A stretch of DNA of 47,091 nucleotides from Gammaproteobacteria bacterium. Its GTDB lineage: Bacteria > Pseudomonadota > Gammaproteobacteria > Beggiatoales > Beggiatoaceae. The stretch is from NCBI GenBank assembly GCA_003645255.1, contig QNES01000012.1, forward strand, positions 1-47,091. The letters are read 5' to 3'. Positions 13,099 to 16,746 of this stretch are shown in pieces. Position numbers and translations under genes: made by a program. The notes beneath the pieces are model-generated. The model was not told the origin of the DNA and did not search any database. It saw only the letters and a list, made by a program, of their open reading frames with translations. Numbering within the stretch: position 1 is the stretch's first letter; each line of letters opens with the position of its first letter.

Positions 13099-13896
13099 AT
13101 GTATCAAACGAAACACAATGAACAGATTACAACTGCTTTGCTACTGGCTGCCGGCATTGGACACCGTTTATTGCCTTTAACCAATAATATGCCTAAATGC
13201 CTAACGAAAGTTAATGATAAGGAAATCTTAGCTCACTTAGTCCATAGTCTTCACCTATATAATTTTCGACGTTTAATTGTGGTTGTAGGCTATTTGGAAC
13301 AAAGTATCCGAAAATTCCTGGATAGGATAGCAGGAAACCTTACTATTGAGTACATTGTCAGTCCAAAGTACAGAACGACCAATAATATCTATTCGCTTTG
13401 GATGGCACGGAATGAAATTCACTCCCCCTTTTTGTTGTTTGAAAGCGACTTGGTTTTTGCTCCCGCCCTGCTGAAAAATATGCTTTATCCAGATAGAATG
13501 GCTATTTCGCATATTTTGCCATGGATGAATGGTACAACCATTACTACTAACCCTGATCTACCACACAATGTAATTGCGTTTAATCTTAATTCTCTCTCAA
13601 CCAATACGCACGATATTACCTACAAAACTGTCAATATTTACAGTTTTTCACGCCAAACTTGGAAACGGGTTGCTAAACGCTTAGATAACTTTATTTCTGC
13701 TGGAAAGGTAAATGACTATTATGAAACCGTTTTTGCGGAAATGATCGCTGATGGCAGTCTAAATTTTCAAAGTATTTTGTTTGCGAAGGAACGTTGGTAT
13801 GAAATTGACACCGTGGAAGACTTGCATGCGTGTGAGCGGATGTTTTTAAACCAAATGTTGCCCAAGATAAAGCCAAAAAGTCACGCAGTCCAATGA
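13099..13896 (+). CDS. LicC-like nucleotidyltransferase, probable phospho-amino-alcohol or phosphonate cytidylyltransferase
   Basis: This 265-residue sugar-nucleotidyltransferase-fold enzyme has the nucleotide-binding signature LAAGIGHRLLPLT (16-28) with the PK pair at 32-33, and a metal-binding aspartate at 117 (FESDLVF). The stretch SPKYRTTNNIYSLWMARN is closest in pattern to LicC-type phosphocholine cytidylyltransferases, where a 'KYRxxNxIY' segment precedes the active-site acid. It would activate a phosphorylated or phosphonated amino alcohol with CTP. A TAAGGA Shine-Dalgarno lies 5 nt before the ATG. The stop overlaps the start of the methyltransferase (ATGA), so the two are co-translated. 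The substrate is inferred from the family and the neighbours; a sugar phosphate cannot be excluded. Confidence 0.72.
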   Translation: MYQTKHNEQITTALLLAAGIGHRLLPLTNNMPKCLTKVNDKEILAHLVHSLHLYNFRRLIVVVGYLEQSIRKFLDRIAGNLTIEYIVSPKYRTTNNIYSLWMARNEIHSPFLLFESDLVFAPALLKNMLYPDRMAISHILPWMNGTTITTNPDLPHNVIAFNLNSLSTNTHDITYKTVNIYSFSRQTWKRVAKRLDNFISAGKVNDYYETVFAEMIADGSLNFQSILFAKERWYEIDTVEDLHACERMFLNQMLPKIKPKSHAVQ

Positions 13897-14723
13897 AACA
13901 ACAAGCATCGAACAAGGTAAGTTATACCAAAATCAATCACTATTGGCAAAACGCTACTCCATCTATTTTGGGTCCCTACATGATGGATGGATTGGGTTTT
14001 CCTGCCAGTGCTGGACAATTTCGTTTCCAAGCAGAATGCAAAATTGTCAAGAAACTTTTGCAAGATCAGGGGATAAATTATAACACTTTGTTAGATTTAG
14101 GTTGCGGCATTGGTTATTGGACAGAATATTTTGCTCGACAATTTACCAAAGTTACGGCGGTAGAAGCAAGTCCTCCTTTGTTTGAAGCTATGGTGCAACG
14201 CTGTTCCACATATCCAAACGTGAATTCGGTGCAAGGCGATGTTCTTTTGTTTGAGCCTTTAGAGAAGTATTCTATGGTTTTTTTAGGTGGGATGCTTATG
14301 TACCTTAATGAACACGATGTTATTGCTCTATTATGCAGACTTATTCCATTTCTGGAAAAAGGCGGGATTATCTTATGCCGTGAAACGACTGTGCGTGATG
14401 GAACCGTTATCAGAGAGGGTACATACCAAGCTGTCTATCGTTCAATACCAACCTACATGAATATTTTTGAGAAATGTCATCTAAAACTGATTAAAACGGA
14501 AAGCAATTTGCCATACAATCTTTTGCAGATGGGTTGTGAATCCATGGAAAAATGGCAAAAAATCACTCCTAAACCGTTGCAAGCCATTCCAATTATTGGG
14601 CGACTGATCTATTGGGGTTTAAGACTTTGTAATCCTTGGATTATCCGTGTTCCTGCGGTTTTCAATTCCACTTTTCCTGAGTTGACCAATCACTTTTTCT
14701 TACTTCGTGCAAGCAACAATTGA
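13893..14723 (+). CDS. SAM-dependent methyltransferase
   Basis: This class I methyltransferase has 276 residues. The SAM-binding motif LLDLGCGIGYWTEYF lies at 66-80, followed by TAVEASPPLFEAM (motif II acid) and VQGDVLLFEP. GGMLMYLNEHDV and LEKGGIILCRETTVRDG form the post-I strands. The segment YQAVYRSIPTYMNIF is reminiscent of small-molecule N-methyltransferases, but I cannot name the acceptor. The start overlaps the nucleotidyltransferase stop by the ATGA arrangement, which argues that both act on the same intermediate. N-methylation of an ethanolamine-like head group is the simplest idea and remains inference. The next gene is separated by 258 bp of hairpins. Confidence 0.75.
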   Translation: MKQQASNKVSYTKINHYWQNATPSILGPYMMDGLGFPASAGQFRFQAECKIVKKLLQDQGINYNTLLDLGCGIGYWTEYFARQFTKVTAVEASPPLFEAMVQRCSTYPNVNSVQGDVLLFEPLEKYSMVFLGGMLMYLNEHDVIALLCRLIPFLEKGGIILCRETTVRDGTVIREGTYQAVYRSIPTYMNIFEKCHLKLIKTESNLPYNLLQMGCESMEKWQKITPKPLQAIPIIGRLIYWGLRLCNPWIIRVPAVFNSTFPELTNHFFLLRASNN

Positions 14724-14748
14724 TAGGAAGCCCAGCATATAGCAAAAC

Positions 14749-14849
14749 CTACCCACAAAATATAGTTTTGTGGGTAGTGATGCAATATGAGTGATGGAAT
14801 CCAAACTTTAGTTTGGCTATTCCAAGATAAATCTTGGAGTCAGTCACTC
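14749..14849. repeat. Two adjacent hairpins, one branched, before the PLP-enzyme gene
   Basis: CTACCCACAAAA (14749-14760) pairs perfectly with TTTTGTGGGTAG (14766-14777). A branched palindrome follows. Its outer arms are GAGTGA (14789-14794) and TCACTC (14844-14849). One inner arm is TGGAAT/ATTCCA enclosing CCAAAC/GTTTGG, and a second is CCAAGAT/ATCTTGG (14822-14837). The TGGA-TCC-AAA design recurs at 28329-28365, which suggests a dispersed repeat and not a riboswitch. No gene was found in 14724-14981. Confidence 0.6.
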
Positions 14850-14981
14850 TCTTTGCAAGACGACCAAAGAAAGCAAGTTTCGAGGTTCAAGTTTTTTTAT
14901 CGAAAAAACTTGAATTGAAAAAACGTTGCTGGATCACCACTACTTATTTGGACACTACCACATCATAAACCGAAATCTTAA

Positions 14982-16097
14982 ATGTCACAAAATAATTATA
15001 AGACTCAATCTGAAAAATACGATTTCCTCTCTGGTCAACACGGTGGTTATTATCGGCATAATTTTATAGATCATGCCTATCTTTATAATCTTTATTTTCC
15101 GCCAGAGGCTGTTTTTACAAATTTTAAAGATCAAATTCACGATCTTGTCCTAAATTATCCGGTGGCACAAGCTGCCCTTGCAAAGCTTATTGGCAAAATA
15201 ATTGACCAACCCGCTACAAGAATTGTTGTGGGAAACGGCGCTTCAGAGTTAATAAAAATAGTATCCTGTCACATATCCGGCAAGTTAATCGTCCCAGTAC
15301 CTTCTTTCAATGAATATGCCAATGCGGCACCTTCAGGCCAAGTCATTGAGTTTCCTCTTGAATTTCCATCCTTCCAGTTGGATGTCGATAAATTTGCGGC
15401 GGTTGCTACAAGAGTAAAAGCGAATGTTGCTGTTGTGGTAACGCCTAACAACCCAACATCTATGTTAATTCCCAAGCCCGATCTCATTCGGCTTGCAAAA
15501 AAACTTGAAACTCATGATTGCATGCTGATTATTGATGAATCATTTTTAGATTTTGCCGAGAATCCTGAGCAAATAAGCCTCGAACCAGAAATCGAAAATT
15601 ATCCGAATGTGGCTATTTTTAAAAGCATGAGCAAAGCCTACGGTATCTGTGGGCTTAGGATTGGTTATATGCTGACTGCAAATTCAAAATTTGCTGAAGC
15701 TGTGCGAAACGGCGTGCATATTTGGAATGTTAACGGATTTGCAGAAGAGTTTCTACGACTTTTACCCGCTTACAAACAGGAATTTATTGAAAGTTGTAAA
15801 CAAGTTCGAGTCGATAGGGACAGTCTGTATAAAAAACTTGCTGGTATAGAAGGTATGACTGTTTTCAAACCGGATGCCAATTTTATTTTCTGTCGCCTGC
15901 CCGATTATGTGCAAAGTGCTCCTGAAATTACGAAAAAATTATTTACTGAATATAATATGTATATAAAGGATTGTGTGGGTAAAACTCAACCGGATTCTGA
16001 TCGTTATCTTCGGATTGCCAGCCGTACCGAAGCAGAGAATTGTCAATTAGTTGCAGCATTAATTGATATAATGGACTTAAAAACCGTAGAGGCATAA
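14982..16097 (+). CDS. HisC/CobD-like PLP-dependent enzyme (aminotransferase or phospho-amino-acid decarboxylase)
   Basis: This fold-type I PLP enzyme of 371 residues resembles histidinol-phosphate aminotransferase. Landmarks are VGNGASELI (83-91), TPNNPTS (154-160), the cofactor aspartate in IIDESF (185), the Schiff-base lysine at 218 in SMSKAYG and the carboxylate-binding arginine at 226 in GLRIGY. The window shows no his genes. It is flanked by a cytidylyltransferase, a methyltransferase and a CDP-alcohol transferase. Relatives of HisC also include CobD (threonine-phosphate decarboxylase) and serine-phosphate decarboxylases that make ethanolamine phosphate. A role in producing an amino-alcohol phosphate, or an aminophosphonate by transamination, would fit better than histidine synthesis. 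The next gene starts one base after the stop, so they are an operon. Confidence 0.75.
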   Translation: MSQNNYKTQSEKYDFLSGQHGGYYRHNFIDHAYLYNLYFPPEAVFTNFKDQIHDLVLNYPVAQAALAKLIGKIIDQPATRIVVGNGASELIKIVSCHISGKLIVPVPSFNEYANAAPSGQVIEFPLEFPSFQLDVDKFAAVATRVKANVAVVVTPNNPTSMLIPKPDLIRLAKKLETHDCMLIIDESFLDFAENPEQISLEPEIENYPNVAIFKSMSKAYGICGLRIGYMLTANSKFAEAVRNGVHIWNVNGFAEEFLRLLPAYKQEFIESCKQVRVDRDSLYKKLAGIEGMTVFKPDANFIFCRLPDYVQSAPEITKKLFTEYNMYIKDCVGKTQPDSDRYLRIASRTEAENCQLVAALIDIMDLKTVEA

Positions 16098-16098
16098 A

Positions 16099-16746
16099 AT
16101 GAAAAATCCCAAACCTCAACAACCCACAATGCTTTCTTTTGCTAGGGATCTTCCCAATATCTGTTCGCTTGCCGGCTTGTTATGTGCAATGCTTGGTATT
16201 TACTATGCTATTTTGGGTCATTTTCCAGCGGCGATAATTGGAGTTCTGTGGGCGGTTGTATTTGACTGGGCTGACGGAATCATTGCTCGCCAAATGACGG
16301 GGCGAACCGATCTGCATCGAGCTTTTGGGGGCCAACTTGATTCGCTGATAGATATTGTCAGTTTTGGAGTATTCCCTGCTATTTTTCTTTTAAGCTATGG
16401 TAAGTTCAGTCTGTGGTTCCTACCGGGAGCATTTCTTATTGTTGCCGCATGCGCTATACGATTGAGTTATTTCAATATTTTTGGGTTGGTTGACAGCAAA
16501 TCCTACATGGGGATGGCAGTAGACAACAACGGAATTATTCTTGCTTTTGTGTTTTTATTTGAAGGTTTTTTTAATCACGCCGTTTTTTCAATAATCCTTT
16601 ATACACTGTTGATAGTAATTGCGGCATTAAATTTAGCCCCTATACGTCTACCTAAATTTGCCGGAAAATGGTTTTATGTTCTTATAATCTACACCTTGGT
16701 ATTGACAGTTATCTACGGTTGGATACATTATACTGCTAACGGTTGA
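16099..16746 (+). CDS. CDP-alcohol phosphatidyltransferase family membrane enzyme
   Basis: This integral membrane protein of 215 residues has about six hydrophobic segments. The family signature is clear: D56-x2-D59-G-x2-A-R64, then after a spacer longer than usual (12 instead of 8 residues) G-x3-D81-x3-D85. The DSLIDIVSFGVFPAI and RLSYFN segments resemble phosphatidylserine synthases (PssA group). Members join a CDP-activated lipid to an alcohol, or a CDP-activated alcohol to diacylglycerol. With a LicC-like cytidylyltransferase upstream, the second, Kennedy-type reaction is plausible here, but the sequence alone does not decide. The start lies one base after the PLP-enzyme stop, which implies translational coupling. 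Confidence 0.82.
   Translation: MKNPKPQQPTMLSFARDLPNICSLAGLLCAMLGIYYAILGHFPAAIIGVLWAVVFDWADGIIARQMTGRTDLHRAFGGQLDSLIDIVSFGVFPAIFLLSYGKFSLWFLPGAFLIVAACAIRLSYFNIFGLVDSKSYMGMAVDNNGIILAFVFLFEGFFNHAVFSIILYTLLIVIAALNLAPIRLPKFAGKWFYVLIIYTLVLTVIYGWIHYTANG

Follow-up and report, generated by a model that had tools for sequence, protein, structure and literature searches.

Positions 13,099 to 16,746 of a 47,091-nucleotide stretch of contig QNES01000012.1 from a gammaproteobacterium of the Beggiatoaceae (the whole stretch is hereafter called the window) encode a cytidylyltransferase (NTP), an S-adenosylmethionine (SAM) methyltransferase (MT), a CobD-like pyridoxal phosphate enzyme (PLP) and a CDP-alcohol (CDP-OH) transferase (CDPOH). 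Judged from sequence comparison and gene neighborhoods, NTP, PLP and CDPOH look like a self-contained, horizontally spread three-gene cassette. We consider it somewhat probable (about 0.55) that this cassette leads from O-phosphoserine through CDP-ethanolamine to a phosphoethanolamine lipid, the head group of which would be methylated by an MT drawn from a second operon.

Conservation and spread of the NTP-PLP-CDPOH cassette

All four genes lie on the plus strand, and the open frames and protein families described in the original prediction were confirmed, including the ATGA overlap between NTP and MT and the 1-nt gap between PLP and CDPOH. NTP (13099–13896, 265 aa) matches the NTP_transferase family (PF00483, 37.6 bits) and is a LicC/PntC-like protein, predicted to be a CTP:phosphoethanolamine-type cytidylyltransferase; MT (13893–14723, 276 aa) is a SAM methyltransferase, accessory to the cassette, whose best Pfam match is PF05891. 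After an interval of 258 bp, the second pair begins with PLP (14982–16097, 371 aa, Aminotran_1_2), resembling CobD and SMUL_1544 and predicted to decarboxylate a phospho-amino acid, most likely O-phosphoserine, and ends with CDPOH (16099–16746, 215 aa, CDP-OH_P_transf, PF01066), a predicted phosphoethanolamine transferase to lipid. The host genome (4.41 Mb, 96.67% complete) has a Thiotrichaceae metagenome-assembled genome (MAG) as its closest named relative.

Scanning one genome for each species with six exact peptide patterns and keeping the best 80 of 157 matches, so that divergent cassettes are under-sampled, yielded 79 loci with a PLP 71–91% identical to that of the window. NTP was directly upstream of PLP at all 73 loci having at least 1 kb of room, CDPOH was downstream at 67 of the 68 having at least 0.8 kb, and both flanked PLP at 61 of the 62 with room on both sides (L054 being the exception); the linked cytidylyltransferase and CDP-OH transferase at these 61 loci represent a Kennedy-type pairing. 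The original prediction had treated all four genes as one set, to be sought together in other genomes. Its core of NTP, PLP and CDPOH stood, recurring across the 79 loci, but MT fell outside this core: only 9 of the 79 other cassettes have it alongside, in no case between NTP and PLP, and it is absent from the locus of a sister species (L021). A four-gene cluster acting as one unit was therefore rejected.

Directly beside the cassette only an ATP-grasp gene (13/83 loci) and MT (10/83, window included) recur, and the two never occur together (0/83). The ATP-grasp protein, which directly follows the cassette (423 aa at L044 9811–11082, and homologues), has amino-acid ligases such as BesA as its nearest, weakly matching solved relatives. 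With partners of these two kinds, the amine of the head group may become N-methylated or amide-linked. No kinase family was seen among the annotated part of the gene clusters common to at least three loci, a genome-wide kinase search not having been made. Many loci have unrelated flanking genes, and the lack of shared outer neighbors together with the wide host range is consistent with horizontal transfer on repeated occasions. By submitters' titles, the hosts fall under 15 phylum labels, methanogenic and anaerobic methanotrophic (ANME) archaea included. The 11 Methanobacteriota rows comprise Methanosarcina, Methanococcoides, ANME-type lineages and one labelled Methanothrix, and not all of the archaeal hosts are MAGs by title, Methanococcoides seepicolus LLY being named as a strain. 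In the trees, from which rows below 30% identity or below a length cut had been removed beforehand, the archaeal rows formed one clade (SH-aLRT 96) within a 20-row set holding 9 bacterial rows (98), the root being uncertain. One Methanosarcina contig (L043, 7022–13344) carries the whole cassette in two tandem copies. Searches of openly licensed literature on 2-aminoethylphosphonate (AEP) and CobD found no description of the cassette.

Predicted activities of the cassette enzymes

In the proposed route, PLP would remove the carboxyl group of a phospho-amino acid, O-phospho-L-serine being the likeliest, to yield an amino-alcohol phosphate (phosphoethanolamine), which NTP would condense with CTP to give CDP-ethanolamine. 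With release of CMP, CDPOH would then pass the phosphoethanolamine group of CDP-ethanolamine on to a lipid, which would be diacylglycerol in bacteria and archaeol in archaea; the window's MT would N-methylate this head group. We infer the lipid acceptor, the direction of transfer and the methylation target, as well as cytidylyl transfer by NTP and the use of O-phosphoserine rather than threonine phosphate by PLP. A known precedent acts on 2-amino-4-phosphonobutyrate, the C–P analogue of phosphoserine: FrbH is described as joining an N-terminal cytidylyltransferase to a C-terminal decarboxylase (PMC8976061, PMC6697681). In the cassette, decarboxylation may come before or after cytidylylation, since FrbH is reported to cytidylylate first.

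The best PDB match of NTP was LicC (1JYK), with PntC (6PD1) next by profile. Of 74 cassette rows, all have the metal-binding Asp117 and 73 have G19, G21, R23 and K33 of the GxGxR..PK signature, the remaining row having a gap. According to PMC6697681, Glu104 and Glu196 of Tde-PntC lie near the amine of the substrate, LicC has Asp there, and sterics are the main determinant. Glu115 and Glu209 of the window NTP occupy these two positions and were present in 93/94 and 94/94 aligned rows, respectively, and Asn95-Asn96 are as in LicC, the corresponding residues being Gly-Ser in Tde-PntC and in all five rhizobial NTPs. A Glu pair suited to a small primary amine, combined with an Asn-Asn pair suited to a phosphate ester, points to phosphoethanolamine, and the residues hence suggest this as the NTP substrate. 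Phosphocholine was rejected as a substrate because Glu, and not the Asp of a choline-type pocket (Asp105/Asp192), is found at both positions.

PLP looks like a decarboxylase-type enzyme, as predicted from its sequence and from a structure model with a mean pLDDT of 87.1. Among NCBIfam models, CobD (TIGR01140, 173 bits against a cut-off of 290.55) scored above HisC (TIGR01141, 136 bits against 276.55). A profile search ranked SMUL_1544 (6OUX, 201 bits) above 3FTB (167) and CobD (125), with HisC entries lower at 106, 96 (8BJ1) and 78 (1FG3) bits, 3FTB itself being named HisC in the PDB. Foldseek with the model likewise placed SMUL_1544 at the top (E 2.4e-28), followed by CobD of Salmonella; 6OUX and 1LKC stood above every HisC-named structure, with modest margins (2.4e-28 versus 1.1e-25 for 3FTB, and 1.7e-23). 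PLP has the catalytic Lys218 and an RxxxR motif (Arg344 and Arg348) as in 6OUX and 1LC5. Of 80 cassette rows, 79 have Arg348 and one has a gap at this position, where both HisC proteins of the host genome have Gly; Phe188 and Trp248 likewise set the cassette PLP apart from these HisC proteins. The motif is not a universal mark, since 3FKD, named as a threonine-phosphate decarboxylase, is without the second Arg; one viral PLP homologue has Asn at the Arg348 position.

CDPOH contains the four Asp residues of the signature DxxDGxxAR(x8)GxxxDxxxD, with a spacer of 12 rather than 8 residues. This spacer, singled out in the original prediction, proved to mark a real subfamily: it was 12 in 71/71 homologues and 8 in the PssA and PgsA of the host genome and in three CDPOH2 proteins tested, CDPOH2 denoting the CDP-OH transferase of a second arrangement, NTP-MT-CDPOH2 (type-2 operon, as distinct from the type-1 cassette NTP-PLP-CDPOH). 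The best NCBIfam matches of CDPOH were archaetidylserine synthase (NF038087, 96 bits, cut-off 240) and pssA (TIGR00473, 75 bits, cut-off 107), and the sole fold matches of its model at E <0.001 were MjPSS chains. The MjPSS report gives Asp62, Ser63, Asp66 and Phe105 as the serine site and stresses Arg101 and Arg104 (PMC8633023). CDPOH keeps all of the serine-site residues (Asp81, Ser82, Asp85 and Phe125, in 71/71 homologues) and the equivalent of Arg101, and Arg104 is replaced by Tyr124 in 71/71. CDPOH is thus like MjPSS/archaetidylserine synthase in fold, metal-binding Asp and serine-site residues, and differs from it in the spacer, in the Tyr and in its linkage to an NTP.

A spacer of 12 together with the Tyr was also found in CDP-OH transferases of Bradyrhizobium, Rhizobium, Sinorhizobium, Rahnella and, as a fragment, Mesorhizobium, and that of Priestia has the Tyr with a spacer of 13. 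The combination of RL[SA]YF and a 12-residue spacer occurred in the cassettes and in the NTP-adjacent CDP-OH transferases of rhizobia and Rahnella, and not in PssA, PgsA or CDPOH2; the host's own PssA has RLARF and a spacer of 8. These shared marks therefore indicate a real CDP-OH subfamily travelling with an NTP, and offer a simple annotation mark for proteins now filed as phosphatidylserine or archaetidylserine synthases.

The lipid route weighed against other readings

The Kennedy-like logic of the original prediction holds for three of the genes, as evidenced by linkage, NTP-PLP fusions, the CobD-type fold and residues of PLP and the pocket of NTP, but MT and NTP of the window belong to another operon type. 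Its expectation that such a route would be new or rare has to be tempered, given that FrbH already joins the first two activities and that the genome has PssA and Psd. With PssA, PgsA and Psd all encoded in the host genome, the cassette is not needed there for ordinary phosphatidylethanolamine. Genome-wide family searches covered 51 genomes (from 48 of the 79 loci, plus four genomes carrying G labels, minus L089), and absences in the genomes behind the loci are soft because the completeness of those genomes is not shown. In favor of the route, 7 of the 8 cassette genomes without Psd, including all four spirochaetes tested, had no PssA-like match above 35 bits other than CDPOH, G067 being the Psd-less genome with another.

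Several observations weigh against the phosphoethanolamine-lipid route. This Psd-less argument is weakened because the Psd-positive genomes G059 and G084 are also without another PssA-like match above 35 bits. Psd was matched in 43 of the 51 genomes, the host included, and an ethanolamine lipid is usually made anyway. PLP falls under the CobD equivalog cut-off, and HisC structures follow closely in its fold search. The family match of MT is generic, PF05891 being an N-terminal protein methyltransferase family. The serine-site residues kept in CDPOH would also permit a CDP-diacylglycerol:serine-type reaction. Finally, the residue argument for NTP is not strict, since PMC6697681 describes the AEP enzyme Ari-PntC as resembling LicC more.

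The role of the cassette may differ between hosts: it may replace PssA-Psd in some, certain spirochaetes among them, and elsewhere may make a special lipid with a methylated or aminoacylated head group. We would go further only tentatively, and think it doubtful that the cassette is a mobile route from O-phosphoserine through CDP-ethanolamine to ethanolamine phospholipid that works on both bacterial and archaeal backbones, has crossed domains, bypasses phosphatidylserine decarboxylation and free ethanolamine, and is the phosphate-ester twin of the FrbH pathway. If true, this would be a third de novo way to an ethanolamine-type phospholipid, one without phosphatidylserine or scavenged ethanolamine, and would tie membrane chemistry to the enzyme plan of a phosphonate antibiotic. 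Because ANME-type archaea share the cassette (PLP >70% identical) with Desulfobacteraceae and other bacteria of sediments, it would also provide a concrete gene set for interpreting the intact polar lipid head groups of methane seeps.

The same chemistry could instead end in a soluble or otherwise non-lipid product, with the CDP-amino alcohol passed to a small hydroxy acceptor such as serine, or to a glycan, and the resulting phosphodiester metabolite may be aminoacylated by the ATP-grasp enzyme or methylated by MT. We rate this as a minority possibility that deserves weight: the serine-site residues are kept in CDPOH, the same cassette is found in bacteria and archaea despite their differing lipid backbones, ATP-grasp follows it at 13/83 loci, and NTP-PLP fusions occur in what look like natural-product clusters, accompanied by ATP-grasp together with DXR in Priestia and with HAD in Rahnella, and on a viral contig close to LicD genes. 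However, CDPOH spans the membrane several times and is closest to PssA, and MjPSS-type enzymes are reported to tolerate different lipid chains (PMC8633023), so that the difference in backbone is no obstacle. It is improbable that CDPOH acts by itself as a CDP-diacylglycerol:alcohol transferase of the phosphatidylserine-synthase type while the NTP-PLP pair serves another pathway. Its best NCBIfam matches (both under cut-off) and its serine site would fit that role, yet CDPOH is tightly linked to NTP and PLP, has Tyr for Arg104 of MjPSS, and shares its spacer with the rhizobial phosphonate clusters rather than with the host's own PssA.

The remaining alternatives concern PLP. A true threonine-phosphate decarboxylase would give a 1-amino-2-propanol head group. 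In its favor, TIGR01140 is the best NCBIfam match and Salmonella CobD ranks second among the enzymes found by fold; we nevertheless find it distinctly unlikely, as SMUL_1544, a serine-phosphate decarboxylase, outranks CobD by both sequence and fold. PLP shares with SMUL_1544 and CobD the nearest solved fold, the catalytic Lys and the second Arg, but those enzymes belong to the cobamide loop, whereas PLP has NTP and a CDP-OH transferase as partners, and a search for CbiB gave no match in the host genome and none in 25 of the 51 cassette genomes. In the host genome, hisC adjoins hisD on contig 172 and a second HisC is encoded on contig 55, so the histidine operon that, according to the original prediction, might lack its own hisC was found to have it. 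Cobamide and histidine roles were rejected on these grounds. That a cobamide side-chain or histidine enzyme was recruited by chance beside lipid genes is scarcely credible given also the conserved linkage with NTP and CDPOH, its family resemblance to CobD and HisC notwithstanding. The gene context of SMUL_1544 is given in PMC7755780.

The aminophosphonate option of the original prediction, in which PLP would decarboxylate phosphonoalanine to AEP for an aminophosphonate lipid, is disfavored here and we hold it to be very improbable. Phosphoenolpyruvate (PEP) mutase (PF13714) had no match in the host genome, in the fusion-bearing genome G032 or in any of nine archaeal cassette genomes, and 10 of the 51 genomes had one scoring over 100 bits; phosphonopyruvate decarboxylase (Ppd) had no match over its cut-off in the host. 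A phosphonate route in this genome was rejected on that basis, and NTP keeps the LicC-type Asn-Asn pair, unlike the rhizobial set. Without PEP mutase, the universal metabolite phosphoserine would be the natural substrate. On the other side, three plasmids carry homologues of 37–43% identity next to PEP mutase, a search of five plasmid records gave no Ppd, and in the sister species adjoining PEP mutase and Ppd genes are found on a contig other than that of the cassette. The cassette hence persists with or without these genes.

Mosaic origin of the window and relatives of the cassette

The window is a mosaic in which the type-1 PLP-CDPOH half was joined to the NTP-MT half of a type-2 operon. A class-wide search with a fused NTP-PLP query (E 1e-40) matched 9 of 274 genomes, the window's own and eight through NTP; in seven of these eight, NTP is followed by CDPOH2, and in four of the seven, all gammaproteobacterial, an MT 51–53% identical to that of the window lies in between. 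The MTs beside type-1 cassettes are 34–39% identical to the window MT and 65–93% identical to one another. Both families have phosphoethanolamine-type N-methyltransferases as best PDB match (E 6.7e-10 and 7.6e-13), that of the window MT being phosphomethylethanolamine N-methyltransferase 2 (E 6.7e-10). L021 DNA matches the window through NTP into the first MT codons and then jumps; window positions 14720–16730 align with L021 3135–5135. The inserted part of L021 (2784–3068), which precedes this shared part and corresponds to the intergenic stretch of the window at the mosaic junction (14724–14981), matches CDPOH2 residues 106–202 (E 1.6e-15), and a second CDPOH2 piece follows its CDPOH (E 1e-10). 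MT identity with the type-2 set and the CDPOH2 remnant in L021 therefore make an ancestor with NTP-MT-CDPOH2 joined to PLP-CDPOH likely, from which, on this sequence evidence, the window likely lost CDPOH2 and the sister species lost MT and part of CDPOH2. The tree joined the NTPs of the window, L021 and L117 with the type-2 NTPs at 89/89, below its star threshold; a test of the type-2 and window NTPs as one clade was rejected (p-AU 0.017) because the group omitted L117, which falls among the type-2 rows. Within the intergenic stretch, 14730–14975 consists of short segments, the longest of about 60 bp, with further copies in the genome (80–100%), and 14749–14777 forms a strong hairpin. A promoter scan was at chance level (15 found versus 13.7 expected).

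NTP and PLP are fused into single chains of 569–620 aa at six loci (L003, L004, L128, L129, L133 and L135), hosted by G018, G032, Priestia, Rahnella and two viral contigs. A 590-aa protein of S. meliloti was not counted, as its N-terminal part gave no NTP match. These fusions have the domain plan of FrbH, which acts on a phospho-type amino acid in FR-900098 biosynthesis in Streptomyces; compared by description, FrbH leads to a secreted phosphonate antibiotic, whereas in the window NTP and PLP are separate genes rather than an FrbH-type single chain, a membrane CDP-OH transferase follows, and the genome has no PEP mutase match. The CDP-choline (Kennedy) pathway of Treponema denticola resembles the cassette in using LicC-type activation and then a CDP-alcohol-family phosphotransferase, but it starts from scavenged choline with a LicA kinase (PMC6805115), and the cassette has no linked kinase and is fed by an amino-acid decarboxylase. 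PntC-AEPT of the same species, which makes CMP-AEP, also joins an NTP to a PLP enzyme and has a Glu pair facing the amine; AEPT is an aminotransferase, however, with decarboxylation carried out separately by Ppd on a phosphonate substrate.

PLP homologues of up to 43% identity were found in 17 plasmid records, of which six were examined, and in three of the six PEP mutase lies near NTP and PLP. Three rhizobial symbiosis-type plasmids (L130, L131 and L134) carry PEP mutase, NTP, a CDP-OH transferase and a CobD-like PLP enzyme, and their records contain no Ppd. Of the four rhizobial loci, all but that of Bradyrhizobium have a class I/II aminotransferase listed. PEP mutase clusters without Ppd would fit conversion of phosphonopyruvate through phosphonoalanine to AEP, with the PLP homologue as decarboxylase, and such a phosphonoalanine-decarboxylase route is possible for these three plasmids.

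DXR, a reductoisomerase, is the target of fosmidomycin-type inhibitors. Plasmid pBM700 of Priestia megaterium (L133, 1802–9906) carries an NTP-PLP fusion and, beside it, a pair of ATP-grasp genes, a small CDP-OH transferase, a gene of the AAC(3) family and a second DXR, possibly a hitherto unstudied cluster in which a second copy of the target gives self-protection. A viral contig (L128, 5320–10688) carries a 569-aa fusion, an ATP-grasp gene and two LicD-family genes, predicted from sequence to be a phage-borne set for head-group or glycan decoration. On a second viral contig of 321,650 bases (L129, 5245–7050), the fusion is 601 aa long and its PLP half has Asn at the position of Arg348.

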